The notes beneath the pieces are model-generated. The model was not told the origin of the DNA. It did not search any database and saw only the letters and a list, made by a program, of their open reading frames with translations. Below are positions 11,290 through 44,956 of a stretch of DNA of 64,000 nucleotides, piece by piece (position 1 is the first letter of the stretch; every line of letters begins with the position of its first letter). A program made the translations under genes and the position numbers. Origin of the DNA: Hericium rajendrae (taxonomy: Eukaryota; Basidiomycota; Agaricomycetes; Russulales; Hericiaceae); contig CM065882.1 in assembly GCA_033439255.1 (NCBI GenBank), forward strand, positions 1-64,000, written 5' to 3'.

Positions 11290-12240
11290 GAACGGGTCGA
11301 CACCGCCGTCGTCAGGTCGCCCCGCCGAGCTACGACACCCGCGCGCGCCGTCCCGCTCGATGGTCTCTTCGGGGCCTGGCGAGACCCGTCCAAGGGTCGA
11401 GCGGGGTGGGGACTCGGACCCCCGGGCTCGTGCTGAATGGGTCGAGGCGGCCGACGTCGAATGGCCGCGCCGCGACGCGACGCCCATGCGCGCCGTCCCG
11501 CTCGACGACCTCTTCGCGCGCCGTCCCGCTCGACGTTCTCTTCGGGGCCTGGCGAGACCCGTCCAAGGATCAAGCGGGGTGGGGACTCGGACCCCCGGGC
11601 TCGTGCTGAATGGGTCGAGGTGGTCGACGTCGAATGGCCGCGCCGCGACGCGACGCCCATGCGCGCCGTCCCGCTCGACGACCTCTTCGCGCGCCGTCCC
11701 GCTCGACGTTCTCTTCGGGGCCTGGCGAGACCCGTCCAAGGATCAAGCGGGGTGGGGACTCGGACCCCCGGGCTCGTGCTGAATGGGTCGACGCAGGGTG
11801 GGGACTCGGACCCCCGGGCTCGTGCTGAATGGGTCGACGCGGCCGACGTCGAATGGCCGCGCCGCGACGCGACGCCCATGCGCGCCGTCACGCTCGACGT
11901 TCTCTTCGGGGCCTGGCGAGACCTGTCCAAGGATCAAGCGGGGTGGGGACTCGGACCCCCGGGCGCGCGTCGAATGGGTCGACGCGGCCGACGTCGGCTC
12001 GCCGCCCTGCGCTGCGATATCCCCGCACGCCGCCCTGCTCGACAATCTCTTCGGGGCCTGGCGAGACTCGTCCAAGTGCCGAAACAGGCGGGGACTCGGA
12101 GCCCTGGGTGCGCGCTGAATGGGTCCGCGCAACCATCGTCGGGTCGCCGCCCTGCGTTGCGACACCCGCACGCGCCGTCCGGCTCGACGACCCCTTCAGG
12201 GCCTAGCGAGACCCGTCCAAACGTCAAAACAGGCGGGGAC
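11290..12240. repeat. GC-rich satellite, six units of ~145-191 bp
   Basis: The landmark GGCCTGGCGAGACCCGTCC (or a near match) recurs at about 11373, 11546, 11719, 11910, 12055 and 12199, giving spacings of 173, 173, 191, 145 and 144 bp. Units at the left are nearly identical and decay toward the right. One unit has an internal duplication of the CGGACCCCCGGGCTCGTGC segment. All six frames are open because stops are rare in this composition; I do not call them genes. The array sits directly upstream of the dioxygenase-like gene. Confidence 0.9.
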
Positions 12241-14163
12241 CGGCACCCCTGAGCATGTGCTGAAATGCGGGGCGGCAGGACCTGGTGTTTGGACCAGTGG
12301 CCCACCCGGAAGCCCAGAGGCGAAGCACTCACCGGATTTATAGAGCCAAAGCGAGCCCAGGTCGTTTGTTCTCACAGGTACGTCGTGCGGGCCTCGGAGC
12401 AGAGAGGGTGGAGAAGAAAGGACAGGACCAGGCGAGAAGACAATGGGAGCAAGTGAGAGCAAAAAAACGCACCGCGGAGGTCGTGATGGTTCGAAGATTT
12501 GACAGCAGCCATCAACGCGTCAACAGACAATAAACCTCGCCGCGACGCGTCGCGGCGCGGGACGCGTTGGTCACGTGCCACGCGTTCGATAGCCTCGTTG
12601 CTCCAGACACGCCGCACTACTGCACTCGCTCAATCTTCCGGGCATCCACAGGCCCACGCTAAGCTCACCCTCTCTCTTCGATCGGCGAGTGGCGGTCAGT
12701 TCGGCGTGCGCAATGGGCCCGCTAGCGGCAATCGTACTTTTCGGGCACGCGGCAGGTACGTCCGCAGCTTGCGTATAATCTGTCTTGCATTCACCCTGTG
12801 TTCGAGCTCTCCTCTCGGCGGTCGGTCCCTCGCAGACAGACCGCGTTCCTCCCCAGCAAGTCCCAGCCATACTATGCGACAAAACTGTGTGCCACCCCGC
12901 TCATGGGCCGTCCGAAGGCCGCGGACATGCTGACATGCAGCAAGGAGTCCGTGCCCACGATCGAGGGCACCGCCGAGTCGCTCGGCTGGCCGTGGTAGCT
13001 GGGACTCCAGCGCGGGCGACACGCAGCATGCGCCGGGGTGGAAGTTTCCTGGTGCGTTGCCTGGGGATACTCGCATGTCCATGTGCTCCCGCGCGCTGTC
13101 CGTGATTCCGTCGTGCCGGGTACATGCGAGGCTCGCTTGGTGAGTAGCTGGGAGGTCGCCTATTGCGGTAGGCCTGGCAGAACGCCTGCGCCATGGCCAG
13201 CAGCAGCTGTAGCAGGGCGCGTTGTCGACCACATCTAACCAACTTATCCTGCGACAGCTCAATGCCGTGGCCGAGCTGTCAACATCGCGGCGCCGCGCCC
13301 GCGCCTGCCAACGCCCACCCAACGCCTACGCCCAAGCATACCGGCTTTGGTTCTGCCTTCCATGCGATCACTCGCCAGGCGAGAACGAGCTTGTACCTCA
13401 GCGGGATTCACAACACGGCCACTGCGCTCGCCATGTCGTGTTTGCGCGCGGGGAACTCGCCGCCCACGTACGTGAGTGCCGGCTCGTCTGCGCTGTTTGG
13501 ACCACCGCATTTCGATTGGCAGGCTGCCATTCCAGCTCCGTCGTCGGTGCTGGCGGTACCGGCATGGACAACCCCCCGCGCGTGCCGAGGGGATAGTGTC
13601 CTGCAAGGCCCCGCGAAGACACTCGCCTATTCATGAGCTGCCCCTGCCAGCCATGATTCTGGTGCACCTGGTGCGAGTGCCGGAGCTCACGCGCTTGCGG
13701 CTGGTTCGGAATATGGCCTGGTGCGTCGGGCATCGCCCCGGTGGTACGGGTGCTCAGAGACGTCGAAGATCGCGGTGGCGTCGTCGACGCGGCGCTCGGT
13801 CAGGCACACGTCGAGTGCGGAGGATGCGACGAACGGGTGCAGCGCGACGACGTATGCGGGTCGAGGAACACGCGGCGGATCGCCTCATCCACCGCGCTTG
13901 CTCGTGAGCACATTGCCCTCCTCGAGCTCGATGGCGCCCATGCGCACATCCAACAGATGCGCGTATGTGCATCTGCCGCCGCTGTACACTGCTCACGCAT
14001 GATGTTGGCCGGTGCGTGTATGACCTCGATGCCAAACATGGCACGCATGGTGCACAGCGGCTTCGACTTTGTCATAAACACATATACATATACTGAATCC
14101 TCATTATATTTAACCAAAGAATAGTAAATGAGTTGAGATTTATAACATGAACTGTCTTCCCGA
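12241..14163. other. No intact gene; possible decayed coding
   Basis: Open frames on both strands are interrupted and mutually inconsistent. On the minus strand between about 13950 and 13680 a patch reads like real protein (L-E-E-G-N-V-L-T-S-K, then V-V-A-L-H-P-F-V-A-S-S-A-L-D-V) but contains stops. I could not identify it. An AT-rich strip with a short polyA-like tract closes the region near 14100. Confidence 0.4.
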
Positions 14164-15843: not shown

Positions 15844-18284
15844 ATGGATCAGAACACCATGGGCGAACTATGGGGCAACCCGAGACGCCCTGCTGTCCGT
15901 GACGCCTCACCTGGTCTCCATCTTCCTCCACGTTTCTATTCACCACGAGGACGATCGCCGCCGCTCGATGTTGACTTGGACATGGCAGGAAGATCCAGCC
16001 AATTCCGCAATGCTGGGGGATCGGTGCTACGACAGTTTTCATCTACGCATTTTGAAACCCCCTCCAGGTCTATGGTTGTATCTCTTGTTTATTCTTGAGC
16101 CCTCATTTTACTAATGGCCTGAAAATTTGGCAGACTCCTGCCTCTGGTCCAGAGGCCCGCAGCCTTCAATTACTGGCTGATGCCAGCCACGCCGACCTTG
16201 TTTACAGTTGCAACCGGCACTACAATGGACTGGTTGAAGATAAGCAAAGCTTAGAAAAAGCGTTGGCTGCAGCCACCGCGGAGAACGACGCCTTGAGGTA
16301 AGTCTCTAACTGCCTTATCCACACCTACTCAACATGTCGTTCTCTATCAGGCTTGCCCTCCAGATATCTGGGACCCGTATCAAAAGTGAATCCCCGTCAA
16401 CCTCATCACTCGACTCGAGGAATGCTCTTGGTGCCAACCCCTCCACCAACCTCAGCGCATCGCTCACAAAGCTTGAGCGGCAGCCTTCGCTGACCGCGCC
16501 AATTATCCACTGGTCAAATTTTGGACGAAACGAAGCTGGAACGAAATGGAGAAGACGAGGAAGAATGCGACCGGCGCCGACTACGCACCGGGTCCTAAAG
16601 GTAGCCGACGTGCATCGGCCGGTGTCAACGTCAAAGCGCAGTACATTGAGGACGAGCAGGGGATACCGATCGACGGTCACCGAGCTGCGGACATGCGACG
16701 GACAATGCGTAGTATCTGGGAACAACTATTGAGTGCAAGCCTTGCGCCACCCACGTGGCGTCGAGCTAACTACCATGCTCATGACTTTTACCTTGTTGAG
16801 ATGGCCCGCAATTTCCCAGAACTCTCTTTTTGCGAGCACGACTGGAAGGCCGACCAACTCGCGACAGACAATTATCCATCGTGGTGGAAAAGTCACCACG
16901 ACCATTCATCAACGTCAGATGAGTCGGACTCAGACGATGACCACTCGAACGGGAATGACCCCGATGGTGACAACAAGAAGCGCCGCAGGCGTGAAAAATT
17001 AGGACCTGCTGTCAAGAAACGGGCGAAGCCAACTGCTCCTACAGGAACAGCAGGCCAATGTCCATCATCTCCTGGATCGAAGCAGCCTGAGTCGATGGGC
17101 TCCACCACCACGCCGGTGTTAGCGGCGGTCCCCGTCGCCACGGATATTTTGCTGGTAAGCGCTCTGCACATCCCTCAAGTGCATGGTAGCAACTGATCTC
17201 ATCTTACTATTTCCATTTCTAGCCCCAGGATCCGACGTACGTGATACGTTCACCCCACTCCGTACCTTATTCTGACTGTTCACTTCTATATAGCGCGGGT
17301 ATCTCTGTTGAACCAGATGTACCGGCCAGGCTACCTACATCACAGACTGCCATCACTCGTGCAGACGACGCAAATGATGCTGATACCGCCACTCCCCGCA
17401 CTCCTGGTGATGACGTGGATGCGATTCGCATTCAGACCTGCCGCGAACAGCCAAAAGAACTGGTAAGTGTATGCGATGAGAACTTCTTTGCTGGAACTGA
17501 TCATATATTCTGCTTTCTGCATACAGCATGCCCCGACAGTGACTCAGGCTGGAACAGGTGAAGTCGATTTTACGGACTCACTCAGAATTTCTCTAATACC
17601 CTTTTTGGTCCAACCAGATCTGAATGACCATTCCGCCGGTGGGCGCCCTGCCGATGGCGGCCAGGAGGATGTGACTAGAAGTGAGAATGCCGCTGCGGGA
17701 GTCGGCCGCGATGTCGTGGCTGTTGGGCGGGCCCTTGACGTGGGTACTGGTGCGGGCACGAACACGAGCACTGGAGACAAGAATGCAGTTGAGCTGGAGC
17801 TGATACGACGTCAAGAAAATATAGGTGCATACCTTGCTTGTTTGGATACCCGGTCTCGCAGTTAGTCGAACAAATAAATCCTACAGCTACCAACTCGAAG
17901 GGCCAAGGCATTGGAAGCCGCCACGTCCCATCGAATGGCGAACCGGCTGCTGGTAGTGCCGAGCCCATTCAGTACTAATTCCTATATGAGCATGGCGAGT
18001 CAGCTTGACACCGTCGCATCCTAGATTGCGGAGCTCACTTGGCCAACATTTGAGTGTAACCATAGTAGTATGCATAGAATCAATATATATTTTCCATGTC
18101 TCCTTGTGCAGGAATCCCGGCCCAGGGTCCTCATTGCTGCAGTTAATTACCATAAAGCATTGATTGGCCAAGTACATGTCAATTCTGCAATGATATATGG
18201 CTGGGTCCAATGTACTTTATGCTGGGGAATGTATTCATGTCAGCATGTGTAGGTAAGCTGCAGTGTAGTGTGTTGCAGCATGCT

Positions 18285-19270
18285 GCTATGGGTTGGCCAA
18301 AGTATATGCACATATCCCGCGGCATGCCGCTATGGGTTGGCCAAGGTATATGTGCATATTCTGTGGCATGCCGCTATGGGTTGGCCAAGGTATATGTGCA
18401 TATTCCGCGGCATGCCGCTATGGGTTGGCCAAGATATATGTGCATATTCCGAGGCATGCCAATATGGGTTGGCCAAGGTATATGCACATATTTTGCAGCA
18501 TGCTGCTATGGGTTGGCCAAAGTATATGCACATATCCCGTGGCATGCCGCTATGGGTTGGCCAAGATATATGTGCATATTCCGAGGCATGCCAATATGGG
18601 TTGGCCAAGGTATATGCACATATTTTGTAGCATGCTGCTATGGGTTGGCCAAGGTATATGCACATATTTCCCGGCATGCTGCTATGGGTTGGCCAAGGTA
18701 TATGTGCATATTCCGCGGCATGCTACTATGGATTGGCCAAGATATATGCACATATTCTGTGGCATGCTGCTATGGGTTGGCCAAGGTATATGTGCATATT
18801 CCGTGACATGCCACTATGGGTTGGCCAAGGTATATGCACATATTCCGCAGCATGCAGCTATGGGTTGGCCAAGGTATATGCACATATTCCGCGGCATGCA
18901 GCTATGGGTTGGCCAAGGTATATGCACATATTCTGTGGCATGCTGCTATGGGTTGGCCAAGATATATGCAGTATCCCATGGCATGCTGCTATGGGTTGGC
19001 CAAACCACAATTCTGCAATCTCCTGCATGTTGCCATGAGTTGGCCAATGTATAATTTAATATTTGGTGGCATACTGCTATGGATTGGCCAAGCTGTAATG
19101 CCATAGCTCCTCTATGTGGCTATGGGTTGGCCAAGGTATGATTTAGCAATCACTTGCATGTGGCTATGGGTTGGCCAATCTCAATGTAAGTGACTATCAC
19201 CATATTTGCATGGTTGGCCAACATCTCATACCATTTGACCATTTGATGATGTTATGGGTTGGCCAATCTC
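18285..19270 (+). repeat. 44-bp tandem array, left arm
   Basis: Units recur every 44 bp (18285, 18329, 18373, 18417, 18461 and onward), about 16 good copies followed by decayed ones. Each has the 8-bp palindrome TTGGCCAA, a TATATGCACATA or TATATGTGCATA segment, and GCATGC. Because 44 is not a multiple of three, the three frames rotate through the same peptide-like pattern. The open frames are not genes. Confidence 0.92.
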
Positions 19271-19499
19271 AATGTCAGTTCTCTATCATATCCTCCAGCA
19301 CATGTACCATATCCTGCAGCACATTTACCATATTCCATGGTATTCTATGATATTCTGAGGCATTCTATGATATCCTGCAACATGCTATAATATTCTGCAG
19401 CACATGTATTATATCCTATGGTATCCAATGATATTTCCAGGTATTTCATAATATTTAAGGACATGTCATACTATTCTAAAACATGCTATCATATATCTC

Positions 19500-20400
19500 A
19501 AGGCATGCTATATGGTATTCCATGGCATGCTATCATATCCCGAGGCATTCTATAATATCCCGAGGCATGCTATCATATCCCGAGGCATGCTATCATATCC
19601 CGAGGCATGCTATCATATTCCGAGACATTCTATAATATCTTGCAGCAATGTATCATATTCCATGGTATTCTATGGTATTTCAAGGCATGCTATCATATCC
19701 CGAGGCATTCTATAATATCCTGAGGCATGCTATCATATCCTGAGGCATGCTATGGTATCCCACGGCATGCTATCATATCCCGAGACATGCTATCATATCT
19801 CAAGGCATGCTATGGTATTCCACAGCATGCTATCATATCCCGAGGCATTCTATCATATCCCCAGGTGCTCTACAATATCCCGAGGTATGCTATCATATCC
19901 TGAGACATTCTATAATATCTTGCAGCAATGTATCATATTCCATGGTATTCTATGGTATCCCGAGGCATGCTATCATATCCCGAGGCATGCTATGGTATCC
20001 CACGGCATGCTATCATATCTCACAGCATGCTATCATATCCCGAGGCATGCTATCATATCCTGCAGCATGCTATCATATCCCGAGGCATGCTATGGTATCT
20101 CACAGCATGCTATCATATCCCGAGGCATGCTATCATATCCCACGGCATGCTATGGTATTCCATGGTATGCTATCATATCCCGAGGCATTCTATAATATCT
20201 TGCAGCAATGTATCATATTCCACAATATTCTATGGTATCCCAAGACATTCTATGATATTTCAAGGCATTCTATAACATCCCGAGGTGTGCAATCATATCT
20301 CGAGGCATGCTATCATATCCCAAGGCATGCTATGGTATCTCATGGCATGCTATAATATCCTGCAGCACATGTATCATATCCCATGGCATGCTCAAAGCAT
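19500..20400 (+). repeat. 20-bp tandem array, left arm
   Basis: Roughly 40 units of the type GGCATGCTATCATATCCCGA, with variants ending in TATGGTATTCCA or TATAATATCTTG. The GCATGC core is shared with the 44-bp unit, which suggests a common origin. Confidence 0.9.
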
Positions 20401-20429
20401 GTTATAGTATCCCATAGCATATTTATAAT

Positions 20430-20890
20430 ATCTTGCTGCATGTCATGACATCTCATGATGAATGGTAATCACTAGTGGCAATCAAACACCAGTGATGTGT
20501 CATTCGTCATTCAGCCACAACACCTATGTCCCAATCCTCAATGTTTTGGCTTCAACAAATCGAATCAAATAATATAAAATTAGAAAAAAGAATGACACAT
20601 ACTTTCAATTCATATAACACTGTGAACTATAATGGAAATGTAATTAATCTATCGTAGAGTACAAACAAGCAAATGTAAATTAGTGAAGTCTGCCAAATTA
20701 GTCTCTGTCATGGCTCGGCAATCACCGAAATCTGAAATTGTAACACCGCTGGATCTACCCGAGCTACGACAAGTTTCCATAATCAGATGTACTATACATT
20801 GAGCCTAAATGATTTATAATGTTTGACTATCTCAATATCGTGTCAAATAATATGATGAGCACGTGACATGATATAATAACTATGTGTCAG
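20430..20890. other. AT-rich unique loop between the two arms
   Basis: This is the only non-repetitive part of the element's interior. It has no open frame of note and no terminal inverted repeat of its own that I can see. It would form the loop of the hairpin. Confidence 0.7.
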
Positions 20891-20924
20891 AATTCAATTA
20901 GCACATCGTAAAATATGATCACAT

Positions 20925-21725
20925 TCTGCAGGATATGATAGCACACCATGAGACATTATAGAATGTCTTGGGATACCATAGAATATTGTGGAATATGATA
21001 CATTGCTGCAAGATATTATAGAATGCCTCGGGATATGATAGCATACCATGGAATACCATAGCATGCCGTGGGATATGATAGCATGCCTCGGGATATGATA
21101 GCATACTGTGAGATACCATAGCATGCCTCGGGATATGATAGCATGCTGCAGGATATGATAGCATGCCTCGGGATATGATAGCATGCTGTGAGATATGATA
21201 GCATGTCGTGGGATACCATAGCATGCCTCGGGATATGATAGCATGCCTCGGGATACCATAGAATACCATGGAATATGATACATTGCTGCAAGATATTATA
21301 GAATGTCTCAGGATATGATAGCATACCTCGGGATATTGTAGAGCACCTGGGGATATGATAGAATGCCTCGGGATATGATAGCATGCTGTGGAATACCATA
21401 GCATGCCTTGAGATATGATAGCATGTCTCGGGATATGATAGCATGCCGTGGGATACCATAGCATGCCTCAGGATATGATAGCATGCCTCAGGATATTATA
21501 GAATGCCTCGGGATATGATAGCATGCCTTGAAATACCATAGAATACCATGGAATATGATACATTGCTGCAAGATATTATAGAATGTCTCGGAATATGATA
21601 GCATGCCTCGGGATATGATAGCATGCCTCGGGATATGATAGCATGCCTCGGGATATTATAGAATGCCTCGGGATATGATAGCATGCCATGGAATACCATA
21701 GCATGCCTTGAGATATATGATAGCA
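20925..21725 (-). repeat. 20-bp tandem array, right arm (inverted copy)
   Basis: Reverse complement of the left array with a handful of differences. It lacks about 170 bp present at the loop-proximal end of the left arm. Confidence 0.9.
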
Positions 21726-21944
21726 TGTTTTAGAATAGTATGACATGTCCTTAAATATTATGAAATACCTGGAAATATCATTGGATACCATAGGATATAA
21801 TACATGTGCTGCAGAATATTATAGCATGTTGCAGGATATCATAGAATGCCTCAGAATATCATAGAATACCATGGAATATGGTAAATGTGCTGCAGGATAT
21901 GGTACATGTGCTGGAGGATATGATAGAGAACTGACATTGAGATT

Positions 21945-22871
21945 GGCCAACCCATAACATCATCAAATGGTCAAATGGTATGAGATGTTGGCCAACCATG
22001 CAAATATGGTGATAGTCACTTACATTGAGATTGGCCAACCCATAGCCACATGCAAGTGATTGCTAAATCATACCTTGGCCAACCCATAGCTACATGACAG
22101 AGCTATGGCATTACAGCTTGGCCAACCCATAGCAGCATGCCACCTATACATTGGCCAACTCATAGCAACATGCAGGGGATTGCAGAATTGTGGTTTGGCC
22201 AACCCATAGCAGCATGCCACAGAATATGTGCATATACCTTGGCCAACCCATAGCGGCATGCCACGGAATATGCACATATATCTTGGCCAACCCATAGCGG
22301 CATGCTGCGGAATATGCACATATACCTTGGCCAACCCATAGTGGCATGTCACGGAATATGCACATATACCTTGGCCAACCCATAGCAGCATGCCACAGAA
22401 TATGTGCATATATCTTGGCCAATCCATAGTAGCATGCCGCGGAATATGCACATATACCTTGGCCAACCCATAGCAGCATGCCGGGAAATATGTGCATATA
22501 CCTTGGCCAACCCATAGCAGCATGCTACAAAATATGTGCATATACCTTGGCCAACCCATATTGGCATGCCTCGGAATATGCACATATATCTTGGCCAACC
22601 CATAGCGGCATGCCACGGGATATGTGCATATACTTTGGCCAACCCATAGCAGCATGCTGCAAAATATGTGCATATACCTTGGCCAACCCATATTGGCATG
22701 CCTCGGAATATGCACATATATCTTGGCCAACCCATAGCGGCATGCCGCGGAATATGCACATATACCTTGGCCAACCCATAGCGGCATGCCACAGAATATG
22801 CACATATACCTTGGCCAACCCATAGCGGCATGCCGCGGGATATGTGCATATACTTTGGCCAACCCATAGCA
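21945..22871 (-). repeat. 44-bp tandem array, right arm (inverted copy)
   Basis: Reverse complement of 18285-19270. Units near 22100-22350 differ in order and number from the left arm, consistent with unequal exchange inside one arm. Confidence 0.9.
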
Positions 22872-23585
22872 GCATGCTGCAACACACTACACTGCAGCTT
22901 ACCTACACATGCTGACATGAATACATTCCCCAGCATAAAGTACATTGGACCCAGCCATATATCATTGCAGAATTGACATGTACTTGGCCAATCAATGCTT
23001 TATGGTAATTAACTGCAGCAATGAGGACCCTGGGCCGGGATTCCTGCACAAGGAGACATGGAAAATATATATTGATTCTATGCATACTACTATGGTTACA
23101 CTCAAATGTTGGCCAAGTGAGCTCCGCAATCTAGGATGCGACGGTGTCAAGCTGACTCACCATGCTCATATGGAATTATGGTACTGAATCATGTGTAGTG
23201 CCACCACCATTCAGCAGGAAAAGGTCAGCGGTGGCCGTTCCTATGGCATGCGTATCGACGCGAATGCCATCGACGCATAGTCAGTGCTTTACTCCACCGC
23301 TTTCACAATAGCTGACCGTGGTTTCATCGCAGCAACCTTTGTGCTAGGGAATGGAAGGACACCATTGATCCGAAGGGACTCAAAAGCAAGTTCAACAAAT
23401 ATTGGGTCAAACTTCCTGTCCACAAGCGCAAGGTGAGCTCTTCGCCGACATTTGCACGGTCCATAAACGAGAATCTTACGTTGGATCGACAGAGATTTGA
23501 GGTGATGGAGGCGGAACTGGTGCGTATCATTGCCGCCCATGTACGCGCCGATGCCTACACTAATCTGGATGCCGGACTATTCTAG

Positions 23586-25920: not shown

Positions 25921-28900
25921 TTACCCGTCGCCACCTTCGTCCTCGCTATCCCAGGCCCCAAGACCTAGTCCAAGGTCCCGTACGCTCGACACCGCGATGA
26001 GCAACGGGTGCTGTGCATCGAGAGTGGACAGCAGCTTCGCCATATCCTCCAGCGCAAAGTCCTCCATCTCCTCGATCAACGCCAGATCCTCTTTCTCGTC
26101 CTCGATCTCCGATGGGTTTCGGCCCGCCCTCGCTTTGCGCTTGTCGGCCAAGGTCTGTAGTTGTCTCTTGGTCGCTTCGATCAGGCCGGTTTGGAACTCA
26201 GATGGTAATGCAGATGCGCCTCCGAGGACGCGCAGGCAGTCGGCGAAGCACTTATAGAGGGAGGAGAGGAAGGATGAGTCCGTCTCGGTTGAAATGCAGT
26301 TGATAAGCTGCGAGAAGGTAGCCGAAACCATTTGATTCGTCAACGTGTTGCTGTTCTTTCCGCACGATACGAGCATCGGAATAATCCTATGCAGAGGTGT
26401 CAGAGAAAGAAATGAAGAAAAAGAAATTCACATACATGGCTGAAGCTTCCCGGACACCGTCATGCAGATAGAAGCGTAGAGAAGGGAGAGCGAGCTCCAG
26501 ACTTTGCGAAAGATATGGCGAGAACTGAGGGCCAAGCGTTGAGGCATAGATAACCAACGTCTCGAATGCCTGACACTTTTCGTCGATGGCCGAAGTTCTG
26601 ATGCCAACCTGCCGACCATCCAACGAAACAGTTTCCCAGCCTTCCTTCTCTTCGATCACGTCGTCCTCTTCTGTATATATATGCGCAATCAGAACCCTGC
26701 CGCAGACTCGAAGTTTGAATGCAAATCTCACCGTATATCGAGACATCAGCCTTGACGCTTGCGGCTTGAATAAGAGGCGGCATCACAACATGAAGGTATG
26801 GCTCAAACTCTGGACCCATGGCTTGACAGACCTTGGCCCAGGTAGCGATCAGATAATGCGGCAACATGCTATCGCCCGGGTCAACAGGGCCATCTGCAAG
26901 CAACTTCTGAGCCGACGCCGACCGGATTCCGAAATAACACCTACTCTGGAGATGGATGAGAAGTTCCACAAGCGTCGCGGAATCGGCGCGGAATACGTCG
27001 CGTCCAACAGCGATCGCTGGAAGAACGAACAAATCAGCATTGCACAATTAGACGGCAGTGAACGCGGCGCTCACCAATAAGACCCGCGCATTCCATAGCT
27101 TTCGCTCTCAGCTTGCGATACTCGGTGCCATTTGCGTTGCGCAGAACATTTAGTAGCAACGGCATGATGGACGAGTAATGCTGGATGGACGGTCAGCCGT
27201 CGATCCTCGGCGAAGCATGCCTATACTGATTCTTACCTTGGCAAATGTGGCCTCGCTCGCGTCAGCGACCATTGCCAAAGTGGTCACTGCTTGCTCTTGC
27301 ACGTAACGCTTTACTTGTCTTCCATCACTACCCACCGGATTGAGGAGTTTCAGTAGTCGTTCGACGATCGGGTCCAGGTAGGGAACGAGGGTGTCCCTTT
27401 CAACTCCTTCGCAGAAATTGATCAATGCAGCAGCGGCGTGCGCGTGGACACTACATGTCGAAATTTAACAACATTGAATCAAACACAATGTAAGGAACCC
27501 ACCGTGGCTCGGGAGCATCAAGTGTTGGTATGAGCACGGAGAACAATTGTTGGTGATATTGTGCTTGAATCACTTCCTGTTGTATGAAACCAGGATCTCC
27601 AAATCAGTCATCCTGCAATTGTCGAAGTGGATGTCCACTCACGTCTAAGTCAGTACACAGCTGGCCCCTGCAAGTTATCTATCAACGAGAGGGAAACGAC
27701 GGGAAGCGGTGTGGAATACCGACACGCATTGACACGCAGCGTAGCGAACTCGCGGATGCGGGTCGCTAAAGAGAGGGCAGATAAGGCTACGCAACATCAG
27801 CTCTAGCTCACTGTAACGACAAATGGCACTCACTTGACAACTTTGCCGAGCTCGTTTTGCATGACCTGGTCCAGCCCAAAATCGTCAGATCACGATCCCA
27901 TGATTCATGCAGGAATACATGCCTTGCTTGTTCCCTCCGCAACCGCGGCAATGGCCATGAGCCCCGCATGCCTCAACTTCCAGTCATGAGATGCCAACAT
28001 CCCTGGTATGTGCTGGAACGCCGGCGGCAAAACCGCCTTGCCGCCGATAGCGCAAGCGATTCTGTCCAGGGACTGTTCATAAACGCGAGGATAGGTATCG
28101 TCGGTCGGATCCTCAGCGGGCTGTTGAATTGACACAGATCAGCACCACATTCTCGGGCAGCGGTCATGCCGAGCGGAACACATACATCTGCGTCAAGCCA
28201 CGCCTCGAGCTCGTCGTCCCGCAATTCGCCCATGCCGCCCAAACATCCCCGGACGATCATGTTGACCCAGCCGTCGACGCGCCGCACCATGGCGGGCTTC
28301 GCCTCGCTCAGGCTGATCATGAACTCCAGCGCCGCCTTGCGCGCCTCCTCCGCCTCCTCGTCGAGCTCCTCCAGGTCGCTCGTGTCCCTCTCCTTGCCGT
28401 TGTTCACAGGCGGCGGGAAGATGAAGCTGGACTGCGGACTGGGGAACGGCCGCGCGACGGTGGGAGTCGGGCCTGGGTCGGCAGACGGGAGGATCAGCGC
28501 CGGCAGAAATCTGAGAAGCGCAGCCAGATGGGGCGCGAATAGCTGGGCGCTGGATGTCGTGAGTGGCGTAAGCGTGTTCAGAAACCTTGGTAACTGCGAG
28601 TGTGGGAGGGACGGCAGCGTCTCGAGCATGGGATACATCAGAGACAGAGATTGGGCTAGTTGGTGGGGGTCGCAAGACGTCAAATACGACACGGCGGCGC
28701 GGAGGGCGGCATGTCGGACCTGTGCTTCTTGAGGGGCGAGATGAACAACAAATTCTGCTCACGCACCTCGACGCTTTCCGGATCCTGCAGGCCTTTCTGC
28801 AATACACCCAGGACCGCGTCTGTCTGAAGATCCATGACGAGGTTCGGGCATCCGGCAAACACCCTGTAGGCGCTTTCGCGCGCGTTCGGGTCCGCATTCT

Positions 28901-29476
28901 GCGCCATGCCGAATGTCTGCGCTTGGAGCGCGTGCCACGGTCGCCCGCGGCTCATAGAGTTGTTGGCCAGATCGCATATTGTGTCCACAGCCTTTCGACG
29001 GACAACTTGGGATGGCTCGTGGGATAATGAGTGGAGCAGGAGACGTTCGAGTGTCGTGAGCGTCTGGGAGGAGAGGTGGTCGTACAAGGTTACGCGAGCG
29101 GCCTTGGCAGTTTGAATGGAGGATGTCCGGAATAGCAGGCGACGCAGCAGAACGAGCGAGAACGAGCGCATCTGTCAATTGAATCAAAATCTGTTGATGA
29201 TGCAATGCCACTCAGAAACACAAAGGCTACATACCACTTCGGTGTCGGCAGATGTGGCGAACTGGGTGAGGGCCAAAAGGTACACCTCAGGCGTCTGCGC
29301 CAATCTCTCATTGACCGCATTCTCCGCGCTATAATGACAAGCTGCTGTTAGCAACGAGAACACAAATGTCCGAGATGAAACACGTACTTCGTTCGTATTT
29401 CATTGTCCCCGAGGACAAGGTTAGAGAGGATCTGAGTGAGCTCGGTAGAGACTTCGGCGGGTACGACGGGCTCCAT
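25921..29476 (-). CDS. Importin beta-3 / karyopherin (PSE1/IPO5 type), apparently C-terminally short
   Basis: Start codon 29476-29474. About 13 exons; well-defined ones are 29476-29388, 29328-29235, 29171-28767, 28719-28186 and 28120 to about 27940. HEAT-repeat signatures of nuclear import receptors follow in order: [47 protein letters not shown] and [11 protein letters not shown]. The family binds Ran-GTP and carries ribosomal proteins and other cargo through nuclear pores. The protein ends ...[16 protein letters not shown] after an acidic linker, where IPO5 and Pse1 go on for about 200 more residues. No such exons follow downstream. The intron after E-G-T-S-K starts GCATGT (GC-AG type). One intron (27833-27811) would be only 23 nt. 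Confidence 0.88.
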
Positions 29477-30263
29477 GGCTGTAAACGATCACGATCGAAT
29501 GCTTAACGCGTTCGAGGTACAGAGAACAGACCAAACCTACTTTCGACCACGAGATTGGGCCACTCTGCTCAGCGCCTGGAGTGTGCGCTAGACGGTGCCC
29601 GAAATTTGAGTAGAACGTGGACGGTGTTCCGAGCAAGGTAGATCAGTTTGTGATTTTAAGATGACGGTTAGAAGGGAGAAGAAGGAAGAAAGACGGAAGG
29701 CGGAATGGCTGGTTGCCAAAATCTTTGAGTGAGATCAGTCGAATCGGTCGCTATTTGTGGCTGTACAGCTTGTTCTCGGCTACAACCGCATGAACTTACA
29801 ACGTCTTCCACCTCTCCCTTCATGTCAATTCTAACAACATCTTGATGATTTTTCGGCTTTCCTTGCATATTGGAGATGTTGCGACACAAACTCAGACACA
29901 ATTTCACCAAGATAAAAGAGATTCGAACATCATCCACGGGGCCTGCTATTTCGGGCGCTCTCATTCCGCGGCTTCGACGTCAACTCCAGCTTGACTGCAG
30001 TGGGTCAAATGAAATTACTACATTGGTATCGTATTCTCAAACGGAAGATCTGATATGCTTCCGCGAGAAACAGATTAACACCAAGCATGGCTGGTGCCCA
30101 CTAATCTCGCAGCGCCGGTCATTGTCATAGGTGTAGCATCGAAGCATCTGCCAGACTCCATAGATCCTTGTTCCCTGTCGACTTATTCCATCAGCAAAGG
30201 TCTGATATCTTCTGTCTTTGAATATGCGAAGAGCCCTATCATAATGTTATATTTTCCAGCGCG
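29477..30263. other. Intergenic between importin and ispE
   Basis: No recognisable coding. The last ~25 bp before the ispE start (TTATATTTTCCAG, just upstream of CGCGATG) look like a fungal branch/acceptor, so an intron in the 5' leader is possible. Confidence 0.45.
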
Positions 30264-31166
30264 ATGCCAGATCCTGATCTTGTCATCGATCCCAGCTCTG
30301 AAGACCTGGTGGTATACGCCCCATCCAAGCTGAACCTTTTCTTGCACGTTATCGGACGTCGTCAAGACGGATACCACATCCTCCAGACGGCCTTCCAGCT
30401 CCTCGAATACCATGACGAGCTGCACTTCTCGCCGCGCCCCGACCGTATCACTCTACGCTGCATCCGCGCCTGTCCACCGGCGCTCATCGACGACGCAGCC
30501 CTAGAGGCCTTGAACAGCCCCGACAACCTCATCTGCAAAGCGGCGCGCAGCATGCAGGCGCGGTTCGCCATCCCGCGCGGGGCCGACATCGTCCTGCAGA
30601 AGCGCATCCCCATCGGCGGCGGCCTGGGCGGCGGAAGCTCCGATGCCGCCGCCACGCTGCTCGCGCTCAGGCGCCTCTGGGGCATCGACATCTCGATCGA
30701 CGCGCTCGTCCCACTCGCGCAGCAGCTGGGCGCGGATGTGCCGGTCCTGCTGCACGGGCGTGCGGCGTGGGGCGAGGGCATTGGGAACGAGCTGACTTTC
30801 GTTGATCTGCCGCGGCTTTGGTACCTTGTTATTTTCCCGACGGTCATGGTGCCAACGGGGCCGATCTTCCAGGACAGTCGGCTCAGGCGCGATACGCGCC
30901 CTATCACTCTGGACGAGTTCCTCAAAGGCGCGGCAGCCACGCGCAATGATCTCGAGCCGGTGGTCGCAGCGCGACATCCGTCGGTCGCGGAGGCCATTGA
31001 GTGGTTGGGTGGCTTCTCGGCGGCGCGGATGAGTGGCGCGGGTAGCTGTGTCTTTGCGTCCTTCGGAAGCGAGGAGGAAGCGCGGATGGTCCTGGAGCAG
31101 CTGCCCCCGCAGTGGGGAGCATTCGTGAGTCGGGCTACTTCTGATTGGCAGCACTTCGCTACTTGA
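30264..31166 (+). CDS. ispE: IspE-type 4-diphosphocytidyl-2-C-methyl-D-erythritol kinase, intronless, bacterial
   Basis: A single uninterrupted frame of 300 residues, close to the bacterial length (E. coli IspE is 283). GHMP-kinase motif 1 is A-P-S-K-L-N at 19-24, with K22 at the place of the catalytic lysine. Motif 2 is P-I-G-G-G-L-G-G-G-S-S-D-A-A at 116-129 (ATP phosphate loop). G-A-D-V-P at 156-160 holds the catalytic aspartate (D158). Motif 3 is M-S-G-A-G-S-C-V-F-A at 256-265. The enzyme phosphorylates CDP-methylerythritol in the MEP isoprenoid pathway. Fungi use mevalonate instead, and no other MEP gene is in the window. L-N-L-F-L-H-V-I-G-R-R-Q-D-G-Y-H is in the style of gammaproteobacterial IspE. 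All catalytic positions are intact, so it has probably been kept. It lies between a spliced fungal importin gene and a spliced G-alpha gene. The N-terminus is ~12 residues longer than in E. coli, without an obvious targeting peptide. Confidence 0.93.
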   Translation: MPDPDLVIDPSSEDLVVYAPSKLNLFLHVIGRRQDGYHILQTAFQLLEYHDELHFSPRPDRITLRCIRACPPALIDDAALEALNSPDNLICKAARSMQARFAIPRGADIVLQKRIPIGGGLGGGSSDAAATLLALRRLWGIDISIDALVPLAQQLGADVPVLLHGRAAWGEGIGNELTFVDLPRLWYLVIFPTVMVPTGPIFQDSRLRRDTRPITLDEFLKGAAATRNDLEPVVAARHPSVAEAIEWLGGFSAARMSGAGSCVFASFGSEEEARMVLEQLPPQWGAFVSRATSDWQHFAT

Positions 31167-33780
31167 TCGCCATTGTTGCTCGTATATAGTTCGCGCCGTG
31201 CTACACTTCGTGCTCCTCGACAAGCTCGTTCTTCAGTCAATCCAGGCACCGAGTAGAGGTTTTATTTCGAGTAGTCTTACTTACTACCGTCGAGTAACTC
31301 ATCAATCGGACAGTGGTTACTCTTACATATTTGCTATAGAGCAAGTATGCGGCGGCGTTATTGTCGCCTTTCTACCAATCGAGGTGCGCGATCACTAATA
31401 TTAACGGGCCGCGGCAGGCAGGCGCGACTCCTTGCGAACGGGATGATCATCTGCCATCCTTCTGCCAAGCGCTGCCGACCACGAGTTGGCGTCCGCGGAC
31501 TGATCTCGATGCATCACGGCAGACGTGCTTCTGTCACGCCGAATAAGGACTTTTTCGGTGCGTTACAATAGTGCGGACGCATGCGGCAAGATTGTCCAGA
31601 GATACATGACTGCCTGGCGAAAACACTACAGGAATCGCGAGTGCTGATTCATATTGGTGTGGCCGACGGTCGGATGCAGGCGCGGTTGTTTATTGCGGGG
31701 CGCTGTTGTGGCCGAGGTTATATTTTCATTGCTGACCGTGCCAACATTGACACTACTAAAGCGTTTGAGACGTTGACGCCGAAGCGCTGAGGAACCGATT
31801 GAATATGTAGTACGTACCGATCTATCCCTTCGTCTTCATCGTGAGCGTTCTGTTGACTATGACGAAGGACAGGCGTCAGTGGGCATCACGGGTATCAGCT
31901 TGACATCTATGCATTGCACGAACCGGCCGCCCAACCTGCCAAATAGACAATGTGGTCAAACTCTGGAAAACACGATCCACGCCATCCCGAGATGCCAACA
32001 CGGGATGAAGTTGAGGGCCGAAAACTGTCAGTGTCACGCCAATGAATGTGCTGAGCAAGCCATGACGAAATGGCAGCTGCTTGCTTACGACTTCATCCCA
32101 GGAGTGGTCAATACAAGTCATCAGCATTGTAGCACTGGAAGGCGTTGATCGAGGCATTTAGTGAGACAGGGCAACGAACGAGGGGACTCAATGATATTGA
32201 CACAGGCATGGCAAGTTATAGGAAGGGACGGAAGTAGGATACGGACCAATGGGACATCGAGCATCTGGGTTTGGGCAGGCCGGACGCGCCGCGAGTGGTT
32301 AAGGTTGAAACGTTGGCAGATGCAATATCGATCGTGATAAATGAAGTATGGCATGGGCCGGGCTGCATCCCTGCATTTATTTAAAGGCAGGAGATACGGG
32401 CGACCTCCGCCGCGATGCCTCTGATTACGGGGCGCCGCACGTGCAGCGCGCCCTCAGGCTCTGCACTTGGACGCGAGGTGAGTGCGTATTGGCGTCGCAG
32501 CGTACAGGGCGCACGGAGGCGTGGAGGCATAGACGCGCGCGGACGGCGCTCCTCTACGACCGCCGTGACATCGGAAGGTTTCCAGCATGTACCGGTGGGA
32601 AGCTGATGGCTGGCATGTTGCCCACGTTGCACGTTTTTCGCCGCGGTTTCACCACAAGGGCCTACAGCAGAACATAGGAGAGCACTGGTAACGCGAGCGG
32701 GCTGTGAGGCGCATGATGGATCAGGTTATGACTTGATTTACGTACCATACCAAAAGGCATCCCGCGAGATGCTGCGGACAAGGGGTAGGTATCTAGAAGC
32801 GACGTGAAGATGGACTACGCATGTATAGAAGGGCTGCTTTCGGACGAGGCTTGGGGAGAAGGAATCCGCGTGTAAGCGGACGCATCTTTGCAGGTTATAT
32901 TGCACCGGCGAACCACCGGCATCTGCTCAAGCAATCCCGGACCTGTTGGATGATCGATGATGAATGAAACTTGAAGTCTTCCCCGCCAGGCCTTCAGACT
33001 CGGAAGTCTTTCGAGCAAGGGCACGACTGTCTTCGAGGCGCAAACGGAGGACAGACTCGCGCCGTTGCGCAGCGGCCACAGTGTCAGCGTCTCCGTTGCG
33101 ACTAAGTGTCAGCGCCTGCCGGCATGTATGATGCCGCTTCGACGGGCCTCGAGCAAGATCTCGCAGATCGCCCTGCATCTCGATTTATGAGTTCGATAAT
33201 TAGTCGACTTTTGCCGTGCCGATTTAGACGATGGTTTGCAATGGCCCGGCCCTTTGATCTGCGGATGCAGGGACCCCCAGGGCTGGAATTACGCAGGTGC
33301 TTCACATGGTACGTCACATTTTTACACGCTGGACGAAACAAAACAAGTCAGAGGGGGTGGAGGCGAACAAGTTGAGTACAAGGGCAAGGCGGTACGCGCC
33401 GCAGAGGGCGGGAATCCGGCGGCATGTGGTCGCTTGTGACGACAGGGACCAAACAGGAACAGCAGAATACAAAGGCATCGTGACGGGCGTCACTGACTAC
33501 AGAGGAGGAGTGACGAATTTGTGACGGTGACAGGACCGGGGAAGGTGGCCGAGGTGTTGGTCCTTCTACCGTCCTTCCCATCCCCTTCATCCCATACCAC
33601 CACATCCCGCCACCCCTCGACGACGCCCGCGACGACGACGACGCACACGGCGGGCAACGAGCTCGCCCTCATTCATTCGCACATAATACCCCCCACTCGT
33701 TCTCCGCTGCGATCAAGCGTTCTCACAGTCTCACCGTTCTATCTACCCTCCTACTCCTGCCCACACTTGCACCGCTCGCA
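31167..33780. other. 2.6-kb intergenic stretch, no supported gene
   Basis: Only short frames on either strand, none with recognisable domains; the longest are about 110 codons. The final 250 bp before the G-alpha start are pyrimidine-rich (CCACATCCCGCC..., CTCACCGTTC), as in basidiomycete promoters of well-expressed genes. Confidence 0.5.
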
Positions 33781-35310
33781 ATGGGCAACTGCGTCTCAAA
33801 CTCAGAGCGCGAAGGCAAGGCGCGATCAGATGCCATTGACAAGCAAATCGAGGAGGATTCAAAGAAATTCAAGCGGGAATGCAAGATACTTCTCCTTGGT
33901 GAGTCCTCGTTTCTTGTCGGCACGTCCATGGCCGCGGACATGCATTGCGTCCGGTTTCGACGCGCCATGCACTGTTGGGCTGTTCTATAATTATGCTCGC
34001 CACACCGCCGCCACAGAAGTCGAAGTTCATGCATCACTGCCGTCCCTTCATACTCGTTTGCCTTCTGTCAGCTATTCACACAGCTTCTCTCAGGCTCCGG
34101 CGAATCCGGGAAATCCACCATCGTCAAGCAGATGAAGATTATTCACCAGAACGGGTACACGACGGAGGAGCTTCTCACTTTCCGCCCGCTCATCTGGAAG
34201 AACCTCCTCGAGAGCGCGCATGCAGTCGTTGGCGCGCTCGCAAAGATCGGTCTGGAGCCTTCACGGCCCGCGAACAAAGTGCGCACCTTATCTTGCCCGT
34301 TCTATATCCATATCTAAGCTATTTCTAGGCGAGTCTGGAGAAGCTCGCGAGTTACGAGCTGAGCACCGACCCGACGTTTTTCTTCAGCCCCGACATCGCG
34401 CGTGCCATCCAAGAACTCTGGCAGGACCCTATCATCCCGACGATGATGGACCACTCGTCCGAGTTCTATCTGATGGACAGCGCAAGCTAGTGCGTAGCGA
34501 GATCAGCTGATTTCGACTACTGCTGATCTGGCTTCCATTCCGCTAGCTTCTTTGCGGAAGCAGATCGCATAGCCTCAAGTAGTTATACCCCTACTAAGGA
34601 AGACGTCTTGCGCGCGCGGGCGAAGAGCACAGGTATCACCGAGACGCGTTTCAACATGGGTACATTATCGTACGTTGCCTTATTCGATACGACTACCTTA
34701 CAATTAACGCGTTTGGTTCTCAGAATACACATGTTTGACGTCGGCGGTCAACGGTCGGAACGAAAGAAATGGATCCATTCGTTTGAAAGCGTGACCAGTA
34801 TCATCTTCTGCACCGCGTTGTCTGAGTACGACCAGGTACTACTAGAAGAGAAGAATCAGGTACTGTTATTATAGTGTTGCTTATACTGTTCATTTCATCT
34901 TACTTTCTACTAGAATCGAATGGCCGAATCGCTAGTGCTTTTCGATTCCGTCATCAACTCGCGGTGGTTCCTCCGCACATCCATCATTCTATTCTTAAAC
35001 AAGATTGACGTGTTCAAGAACAAACTACCGAAGGTTCCGTTAGAGCGGTATTTTACCGAGTACACGGGCGGCTCGGACGTCAACAAGGGCGCGAAGTATA
35101 TCCTGTGGCGGTTCATGCAGGCGAACCGTGCGCGACTAAGTGTCTATCCCCAGTACGTTCCTTGTTCATCTCTTCCCCATCACCTTTTTGATGCATTTGC
35201 GTTTGTCTAGCATAACCCAGGCGACTGATACATCAAATATCCGTCTCGTGTTCGTGACCGTCAAGGAGACAATACTCCAAAATGCTCTCAAAGAATCCGG
35301 GATCCTGTAG
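33781..35310 (+). CDS. Heterotrimeric G-protein alpha subunit
   Basis: Seven exons: 33781-33898, 34094-34278, 34329-34489, 34547-34669, 34724-34859, 34914-35152 and 35211-35310. They sum to 354 codons with frame kept, exactly the usual G-alpha length (353 residues). The protein starts M-G-N-C-V-S, giving a myristoylation glycine and a palmitoylation cysteine. P-loop G-S-G-E-S-G-K-S-T is at 40-48, switch [11 protein letters not shown], switch [14 protein letters not shown] and N-K-I-D are all present. The guanine-binding TCAT-type motif reads T-Q-A-T-D-T, with Gln for Cys. The C-terminus is E-S-G-I-L, without the Cys at -4 that is ADP-ribosylated in the Gi class. It should act at the plasma membrane downstream of pheromone or nutrient receptors; which one cannot be told from sequence. 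Confidence 0.95.
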
Positions 35311-42640: not shown

Positions 42641-44549
42641 ACAGTACCTTTTCCTGAGCAAGAATAGCTAATTTCAACAATGCCTTGGTTTCGTCTTCAT
42701 CTGGAATACCCCATATTTTCTCCAAAAGCGCCCTCTTCACTTCAATCTCATCCGGCTCGAGCTGGCCGAGCGCGTTGTACACGGCTCTCCACGCAGAGTT
42801 GAGCGCGCCCAGCACCCACGCGTGGTGCACCGACGTCGCCTCGCCCGCGATGTGAAGCTTGCCGTCCGCGGCAGGGGCCTTCATGCTCGCAAACATGCTG
42901 TTCCCACGCTGCGGCTGTCCGAACTGGCCGGGCCCGAACAGCGCAAACGCACCACGCGCATGCCTGTCGTTGTGCCAGTTGTACGCGTAATAGTCGACGA
43001 GCGGGCCGAACTTGGCCCTCGGTACGCCATGCAGCTGCGACAGGTTCTGCAGCGTGAGCTCGATGAGCTGCTTCTCCGCCTCCGTGTCCTTGCCCTGCGC
43101 AAGCCCGCCAAAGCGTTGCGCGTCCTGTGCCCAAGTATAGCTCGCAAGCAGCACACCTGGCACCTTGCCGGTCGCATTAAGGCCGTATGATGGGTAGACG
43201 CAGGTGCGGATAGGAACGTCGGTGGATGAGGTGCCGCCCTGGATCCTTCGGCCACCCATGATTTCGGGATCTTCCCACCAGCGCGACTCGAATTTGAGCG
43301 CAACCTTGGTCGAGGTGTCGTAGTTCAATGATCGGATCGCCATGCGCTGCATGTACGAGAAGTCGCCCTTGGGGATCTCAATCCCTGCAAGGCAGCCCAG
43401 GGGCACAGTGCAGATGACCTGCGAATATGTCTTCTCTGCCACAAACTTGCCATCTAGAGTGAGCAGAGTCAGACGGGAGCCTAGACAGAGAATGACCGGG
43501 TGCGTACCACGACTCTGATATGCTACATTCATCTCTCCTGACTGCATTCTTTCGATCTTGGTCACGCGCATCCCAGTGACAGGCTTGCTTTTGATCCTCT
43601 CCGTCATCCTACTGGTCAGGTGGTCGGAGCCTCCATCGATGCAGTACCATGAGTAGTCCAGCTGCTTTCCTCGGATTCCGGCATCTGTCGTCGCGGCGGC
43701 CGAACCGAAATCCATCGCGTCCATCGTGCTCTCGACAAAGGCGTTGTTGTAGAGTCCAGTTGCAGATTCGAAGGTCTCAAGCCATTCAACGACGGTTTCG
43801 GGATATTCCTTCCTCCCCAACAAGTATCCGCGCGTGGAGTATGGGTCCTCCAATTCCAACAGCTTCCACGCGTCGGGGAATGGCAGCTCCCTAAACGCCT
43901 TGGCGTACGGCTCGAAGATCTCGGCCGCGACGTTGTCCACACCTCGGGCCACGAACTCGTCGGGAACGGCGCCGCCTTTGCTTTCAGAGACGCTGAAGAC
44001 ATCCTCGCCTTTGGGCGTCGGGTCGGAGGAATTGTGGAGCGTGCCGTTGAAAAGCTCGAACGTGTTCGCGGCGGAATACTTGTACTCGATGAGGAGACCG
44101 TCCCTCTCCATGTCGAGCAGCTCAAAGAGCTTGAATACGCGGTCCATGAACGGTATGTTCGGGAAGCGCATCGCGCCCATGTCGACGTAGTCGTAGCGCG
44201 CGGGGTCGTTGACCGGCGCGTCGCGCCCCGCGTCGCCGTTGAAGCGGTGTGTGAAGATGCGCCCGCCGATGCGCTCGCTCGCCTCGAGGATCTCGTACGG
44301 GAGCCCGAGCGTGTCGAGGATCATCGCCGCGTAGAGCCCTGCGCATCCCGCGCCGACGATGCAGATCGGGCGCGCGGAGCCCCGCAGGCGCGGCGGGCGC
44401 GGCGGGCCCGGCCCTGTTGTGTGGTGGGAGTCGATGGTCTCCTGGACGACGAGCTTTGCCGCCCTTGCACGCACGGAGCATGATGAGCGTGAGCGGACAG
44501 CGAGGTTGATTGACATGTTTGTGCTGTAGTCGTGTGTTGGGATGGTCAA
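42639..44549 (-). CDS. Flavin-containing amine/L-amino-acid oxidase
   Basis: A nearly intronless frame of 636 codons. After ~60 low-complexity residues comes the FAD dinucleotide motif I-V-G-A-G-C-A-G-L (64-72) and L-E-A-S-E-R-I-G-G-R-I (88-98). The C-terminal flavin motif is H-I-A-G-E-A-T-S-V-H-H-A-W-V-L-G-A-L. This is the Amino_oxidase fold of L-amino-acid and monoamine oxidases, which deaminate the substrate to a keto acid and release H2O2 and ammonia. A stretch of 54 nt (43507-43454, GTACGC...CTCTAG) is probably an in-frame intron, giving 618 residues. No signal peptide is obvious at the first ATG; a later ATG might be used. A mushroom LAO acting in nitrogen scavenging or defence is plausible; the substrate is not known. 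Confidence 0.85.
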   Translation of the reverse strand: MTIPTHDYSTNMSINLAVRSRSSCSVRARAAKLVVQETIDSHHTTGPGPPRPPRLRGSARPICIVGAGCAGLYAAMILDTLGLPYEILEASERIGGRIFTHRFNGDAGRDAPVNDPARYDYVDMGAMRFPNIPFMDRVFKLFELLDMERDGLLIEYKYSAANTFELFNGTLHNSSDPTPKGEDVFSVSESKGGAVPDEFVARGVDNVAAEIFEPYAKAFRELPFPDAWKLLELEDPYSTRGYLLGRKEYPETVVEWLETFESATGLYNNAFVESTMDAMDFGSAAATTDAGIRGKQLDYSWYCIDGGSDHLTSRMTERIKSKPVTGMRVTKIERMQSGEMNVAYQSRGTHPVILCLGSRLTLLTLDGKFVAEKTYSQVICTVPLGCLAGIEIPKGDFSYMQRMAIRSLNYDTSTKVALKFESRWWEDPEIMGGRRIQGGTSSTDVPIRTCVYPSYGLNATGKVPGVLLASYTWAQDAQRFGGLAQGKDTEAEKQLIELTLQNLSQLHGVPRAKFGPLVDYYAYNWHNDRHARGAFALFGPGQFGQPQRGNSMFASMKAPAADGKLHIAGEATSVHHAWVLGALNSAWRAVYNALGQLEPDEIEVKRALLEKIWGIPDEDETKALLKLAILAQEKVL

Positions 44550-44956
44550 CGATGTAATGGTTGTCGATTCCAGACCTGGGCGGAACTCTGGTGAGCAAGG
44601 TTGGTTCTGAGGTGTGCTCGGAAGCTAATATACCTTTCTTCTTCCCCAAGGATATACTGTTTATTGATGCATGGAAGCCATACGCGCGCCTTGACGTTCC
44701 ACCACTTGGTCTTGATTAAGGCGGGCGCACATGCATTGTGTCCGCCTGATTATACGCTGACTTTATTTTGTTCTAAGGACGTCCTGTCCATCGATGCATG
44801 GAATACATACTCGCGTCCGCTATCCCAAAGTCATCTCCCCCAGGCTGTCCATCGATGCATGGAACCTATACACGCGCCCGCTCAACGTCCGCCAACCAAC
44901 TCTGTTCATAAACCGTGTGGGAACGCCGTTCTCTTCGCAATCGCTTCATGCCCGCG
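44550..44956. repeat. Three dispersed ~30-bp repeats
   Basis: The motif CATCGATGCATGGAA followed by an A/C-variable ATAC-CGCG tail occurs near 44664 (first bases changed), 44790 and 44847. No gene is seen. The region is the upstream flank of the oxidase gene. Confidence 0.55.

Follow-up and report, generated by a model that had tools for sequence, protein, structure and literature searches.

Results

The 64,000-nucleotide stretch of Hericium rajendrae DNA analyzed here, called the window, forms the beginning of contig 5 (3.35 Mb). About 30 kb from the contig start it holds an ispE coding sequence on the plus strand (30264–31166). An uninterrupted frame of 300 codons had been claimed for this place in an initial annotation, and the gene indeed runs from ATG through 300 codons to TGA in an intron-free frame, itself part of a stop-free frame of 314 codons. 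A candidate 3′ splice site, TTTTCCAG, lies on the same strand at 30258–30259, four bases 5′ of the ATG; judged from the DNA alone, the 5′ leader of ispE may contain an intron. Antisense to the gene, an open frame of 295 codons occupies 30362–31249 on the minus strand, most likely as a by-product of GC-rich codons.

Upstream, head to head with ispE across a gap of 787 bases, an importin-beta-type gene with introns lies on the minus strand (at least 25924–29476, start codon at 29474–29476), recognized by its translation and by Pfam matches to Importin_rep_4, TPR_IPO5 and Importin_rep_6. The neighbor on the other side, 2.6 kb downstream on the plus strand, is a G-alpha subunit gene with introns that opens with MGNCVS (33781 to about 35207) and extends across four or more open segments (33778–33987, 33991–34314, 34527–34871 and 34914–35207). 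Pfam PF00503 matched all four segments tested, three of them over the cut-off and the first with 21.1 bits against a cut-off of 48.8. The spliced fungal flanks described earlier are therefore real, with importin-beta exons on one side and the G-alpha gene on the other, and in the assembly ispE appears joined to fungal DNA, with predicted fungal genes either side. A six-frame scan of 31168–33781 for remnant donor neighbors returned no Pfam domain, and bacterial-type promoter and terminator patterns near ispE occurred at chance (2 and 1 observed, 1.2 and 1.4 expected, respectively).

The remainder of the window is rich in repeats. Tandem arrays of 31, 84 and 64 bases lie near the contig start (683–1443 and 3814–4025), the last two having GACGCTCGT motifs in common, and GC-rich tandem repeats of 173 and 145 bases, with 97% and 79% matches respectively, occupy 11342–12249. 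The TTAGGG repeat is absent from the whole 64-kb window, and the contig end cannot on this basis be called a telomere. An AT-richer block of 4.6 kb (18278–22877; 38–48% GC by kilobase) is built as a large inverted repeat, with a 44-base tandem array (18278–19178) and a 20-base array (19330–20392) on one side and arrays of reverse-complement-like units (21012–21727 and 22195–22877) on the other. On the minus strand, a 661-codon open frame at 42642–44624 encodes an L-amino-acid oxidase; by sequence, the entries nearest to it in the PDB are L-lysine oxidases and L-amino acid oxidase 4.

The product of ispE carries the Pfam domains GHMP_kinases_N (residues 88–165) and GHMP_kinases_C (residues 223–280). 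It matches NCBIfam model TIGR00154 with E=1.3e-61 and 208.7 bits, passing the curated cut-off of 138.7, and reaches 197.8 bits with the narrower model NF011202, under its cut-off of 204; the homoserine kinase and mevalonate kinase models give 36.7 and 19 bits. By sequence, E. coli IspE is the best hit in the PDB (E=4e-62), followed by the group of 1uek, the Thermus enzyme (E 1e-25). A fold comparison likewise matched the E. coli-type IspE in the PDB and ranked the IspE fold above other GHMP kinases. The predicted assignment to the IspE family is thus far beyond chance.

Alignment with E. coli IspE was used to place the active-site residues, with the roles of the motif 1 and cytosine-site residues taken from the Aquifex enzyme (PMC2655357). 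Motif 1, K-L-N (residues 22–24; 30327–30335), supplies the putative catalytic Lys22 and Asn24, equivalent to E. coli K10 and N12. Tyr37 and His38 (30372–30377) correspond to the cytosine-binding pair Y25 and H26, and Phe202 (30867–30869), equivalent to F185, to the aromatic residue over the cytosine; Tyr175 at this position in Aquifex IspE is a Phe in E. coli (PMC2655357). The ATP loop GGGLGGGSS (residues 118–126; 30615–30641) aligns with E. coli residues 101–109, the catalytic base Asp158 (30735–30737) with D141, and motif 3, S-G-A-G-S-C, falls at residues 257–262 (31032–31049), all on the plus strand. The positions of Lys22, Asp158 and the glycine loop given in the initial annotation agree with this alignment, as does its claim of intactness: the frame is unbroken and the active site whole. 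The catalytic Lys and Asp, the GHMP glycine loop and the Tyr, His and aromatic residue of a cytidine site are accordingly all present in the protein. Across the gap-free columns of the IspE alignment, with the Halomonas row left out, the Hericium protein keeps 24 of 24 invariant positions, 34 of the 36 conserved at 90% and 46 of the 48 conserved at 80%. At its C-terminus, the protein does not retain the NxSPL stretch seen in enterobacterial enzymes.

We searched the genome (46,767,965 bases, 19 contigs) exon by exon for both isoprenoid routes. Neither the ispD, ispF, ispG and ispH genes, for which such a search had been proposed, nor DXS and DXR gave a match, so all six other MEP families went unmatched; the same search was positive in known-genome controls for DXS (13/14), DXR (10/14), IspD (13/14), IspF (9/14), IspG (9/14) and IspH (10/14). 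HMG-CoA reductase was present, as were six GHMP loci: ispE and five others, whose best models are homoserine kinase, galactokinase, MVD, mevalonate kinase and phosphomevalonate kinase. Single exons served as input, and only MVD of these five passes its cut-off; PDB matches agree, with E values of 7e-27 for mevalonate kinase and 8e-121 for diphosphomevalonate decarboxylase. Because HMG-CoA reductase and the six GHMP loci were found, exon-wise searches do detect fungal genes. The absence of an MEP pathway, asserted earlier on general grounds, is thus supported by these searches, and the combined result describes a fungus that uses the mevalonate route and carries a single MEP enzyme out of place.

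Could the protein be a diverged native eukaryotic GHMP kinase mislabeled as IspE? Superfamily and fold are in common, yet the five other GHMP loci match other kinase models, and the IspE protein searched against its own genome at E values up to 10 found itself alone (one candidate scored), which argues against close kinship with native GHMP kinases. Together with 208.7 bits for IspE against 36.7 and 19 for homoserine and mevalonate kinase, this leaves such an origin with a negligible probability.

Among the sequences sampled, the nearest bacterial relatives are gammaproteobacterial. Identity to Hericium IspE is 47% for Aeromonas, 45% for Salmonella, 44% for Halomonas (N-terminal part), 43% for E. 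coli and 41% for Proteus; it falls to 36–37% for Acinetobacter, also a gammaproteobacterium, 36% for Neisseria, 34–39% for alphaproteobacteria and about 30% for Firmicutes. A collection of 72,556 plasmid records yielded 81 matches, none above 60% identity among the matches listed, and a scan of the genomes of 84,980 species, which depends on exact matches of eight residues and is therefore limited to close relatives, returned Anammoxibacter (33%) as the sole relative. Viral contigs gave no match with the IspE protein as query and three loci with an alignment as query.

Two trees were built from hand-picked rows: 19 of the 81 plasmid-collection records, 1 of 28 phage-collection records, E. coli K-12 and Anammoxibacter, with the three viral-collection loci added in the 26-row version. 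The Halomonas row covers the N-terminal part only, its record being split in two frames; both trees contain Hericium as the sole fungal or plant IspE, and many gammaproteobacterial orders are missing from them. Hericium IspE falls in a beta/gamma clade with support of 98/99 in the 23-row tree and 99/98 in the 26-row tree. In the latter it also belongs to a set with Halomonas, Aeromonas and the Enterobacterales (81/93), where the viral-collection contig L034 is counted as gamma; a gut contig falls in the beta/gamma clade. In AU tests, for which the groups were chosen after the first tree was seen, grouping with Firmicutes was rejected (p 0.009) and grouping with alphaproteobacteria was not (p 0.162); placement with gamma alone (p 0.496) and as sister to all beta/gamma rows (p 0.513, equal to the free tree) both stood. 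Of the gammaproteobacterial origin proposed initially, the beta/gamma clade and the rejection of Firmicutes hold, but the place inside the clade is not fixed and the alphaproteobacterial alternative survives. Since few gamma orders were sampled and that grouping stands, we claim a beta/gamma-type bacterium as the probable source and nothing finer. The broader proposal of a bacterial-type IspE in a fungal chromosome is sustained, in that the protein groups inside bacteria and apart from the native kinases, and horizontal transfer appears well supported on these sequence comparisons.

The same searches bear on the possibility that ispE entered the contig through a chimeric assembly or bacterial contamination. 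Its distance of 30 kb from a contig start not shown as a telomere would allow this, but fungal genes flank it on both sides in a 3.35-Mb contig. A contaminant should have close kin, and beyond the distant relatives described above, a distant blastn search of 29480–33780 against plasmids returned a single match, a 202-base piece of ispE at about 69% in seven Klebsiella records. No bacterial 16S rRNA was found in the assembly, a weak result given that 5 of 14 control prokaryotes were missed and that 5 of 853 candidates were scored. In addition, a gene of the same name, Her005768, is reported on Chr05 of the separately assembled H. coralloides genome (PMC11508549). We therefore regard an artifact as very improbable. 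A search of the whole assembly for 5.8S rRNA, with 39 of 1533 candidates scored, also gave no match; the assembly may lack nuclear rDNA, or the search may have missed it.

The terminal branch of Hericium IspE measures 1.3–1.4 changes per site in both trees, longer than the gamma rows. Neisseria and some alphaproteobacteria have similar branches, so long residence in the fungus is not proven; a relic drifting for long is nevertheless unlikely, because the conserved columns are kept on such a branch. Codon use of ispE scores −1.076 per codon against a table of five host genes, inside the range of those genes scored against each other (−0.80 to −1.17), and −1.117 against GC-rich bacteria. The host and bacterial scores hardly differ, which makes codon use too weak to date the transfer.

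Discussion

We put a probability of roughly 0.78 on the following reading: an ancestor of Hericium gained ispE from a beta/gamma-type bacterium, and the gene was kept in the nucleus with its product working on another substrate. The ancestor would have taken up ispE from a bacterium whose IspE is of the beta/gammaproteobacterial group and retained it as a nuclear gene, of which one copy was found, encoding a folded, ATP-dependent GHMP kinase. By analogy with known IspE chemistry, ATP would sit at the glycine loop and Tyr37, His38 and Phe202 would hold a cytosine; Asp158 would deprotonate the hydroxyl of the substrate, and Lys22 together with the glycine loop would steer the gamma-phosphate of ATP onto it.

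What might a lone IspE phosphorylate in a mevalonate organism? A substrate other than CDP-methylerythritol, raised as a possibility in the initial annotation, is suggested because nothing found in the genome makes that compound. Given that the cytidine site is kept, a cytidine-bearing substrate is our first guess, perhaps an alcohol joined to CDP or cytidine that suits the conserved pocket. Isopentenyl phosphate is the second; it is proposed because a side activity of IspE-type enzymes on this compound has been described and true isopentenyl phosphate kinases (IPKs) are reportedly rare in fungi, and as a working substrate it would feed the mevalonate route. The pocket itself is that of an ordinary CDP-ME kinase and does not in itself point to a new substrate. 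Conservation of the cytidine-binding and catalytic residues would also suit an enzyme that still phosphorylates CDP-methylerythritol imported from, or exchanged with, bacteria living with the fungus. That seems improbable, considering that neither IspD to make the compound nor IspF to use it was found and that we know of no fungal uptake of a charged nucleotide conjugate.

Alternatively, ispE could be a leftover: transferred recently, still intact, yet serving no purpose in the fungus. An isolated pathway enzyme with no substrate to act on and the divergent C-terminal NxSPL stretch would be in keeping with such a leftover. Against it stand the lack of close bacterial kin in the genome and plasmid collections searched and a long branch on which all invariant columns are kept. 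The same-named gene is moreover expressed in the sister species H. coralloides (PMC11508549). We judge a leftover unlikely, if less so than continued use of CDP-methylerythritol, and retention with another substrate remains the preferred reading.

In the available text of the H. coralloides study, Her005768 is annotated as 4-diphosphocytidyl-2-C-methyl-D-erythritol kinase, and Table 5 lists log2 ratios of 1.00 for MK-1/MK-2 and of 1.83, 1.50 and 2.01 for dikaryotic mycelium over three fruiting-body samples (PMC11508549). A same-named gene with expression data was therefore already known in the genus; if Her005768 is the orthologue, as we presume, these data support a real, transcribed Hericium gene. 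Its authors read it as a gene of terpenoid backbone synthesis, and the words 'horizontal' and 'MVA' are absent from the part of the text available (PMC11508549). In that part, section 3.7 gives the ispE, FDPS and GGPPS fold changes in an order unlike that of Table 5, where a log2 of 1.00, or 2.00-fold, belongs to ispE; for ispE the study cites work on Wolfiporia cocos (its reference 38). The available text of the cited W. cocos paper contains neither 'ispE' nor 'erythritol' and reports mevalonate genes as the sole ones found. The H. coralloides study also cites another W. cocos paper, whose text is likewise without either word.

We tentatively extend our preferred reading to function: a bacterial CDP-ME kinase might have been turned to a new substrate, such as a CDP-linked polyol or isopentenyl phosphate, and so tune terpenoid supply in the vegetative mycelium. 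This would fit the reported rise of the same-named H. coralloides gene and of two FDPS/GGPPS genes in dikaryotic mycelium relative to fruiting bodies, and we hold it as a possibility well short of even odds.

Other fungal records are scattered. A Ceriporia paper lists, in the passages available, K00919 among the KOs varying across nine white-rot fungi, so ispE may be wider among fungi. The passages seen of a Lignosus paper describe MEP-route genes as expressed per PlantCyc annotation and leave ispE unnamed. A Fusarium proteomics spot named as an IspE kinase was set aside, since it rests on a single peptide whose match is a Sphaerochaeta protein. The text of the H. erinaceus genome paper makes no mention of the enzyme, and that of the H. 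rajendrae NPCB A08 genome paper (PMC10608310) contains none of 'ispE', 'erythritol' and 'horizontal'. No report of ispE transfer into Hericium was among the matches listed in a literature search that covered few subscription papers.

If our reading is correct, Hericium would be a clear case of a eukaryote with the other isoprenoid route that has taken a single enzyme from a bacterial pathway and retained it. IspE, which mammals lack, is for that reason treated as a drug target. At least one mushroom paper has read 'ispE' as a terpenoid-supply gene, a reading that fails in the H. rajendrae genome because no other MEP enzyme was found there.

How does the Hericium gene compare with known systems? 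It resembles bacterial IspE (TIGR00154; E. coli 1oj4, K. pneumoniae 8ckh) in length, fold, catalytic Lys and Asp, glycine loop and Tyr/His/Phe cytosine site. Unlike its bacterial counterparts, it is nuclear in a genome where the six other MEP families are unmatched, and its protein has an extra stretch near residues 63–83 and a different C-terminal tail. Plant and algal CMK, the plastid IspE, is also a eukaryotic IspE; according to the portion of the source available, it clusters with Chlamydiae and works in the plastid MEP pathway (PMC7912892). IPK belongs to a separate family and is alike only in a possible function, phosphorylation of an isoprenoid precursor; among fungi, the available text describes it in one chytrid and in two further basal genomes and as 'otherwise absent', its table also holding an Epichloe EST (PMC3857490). 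A further parallel is Her005768, of the same genus and annotated function, which lies on Chr05 as H. rajendrae ispE lies on contig 5, although the two chromosomes need not correspond. Hericium IspE thus adds to a known family from a host in which it was not expected.
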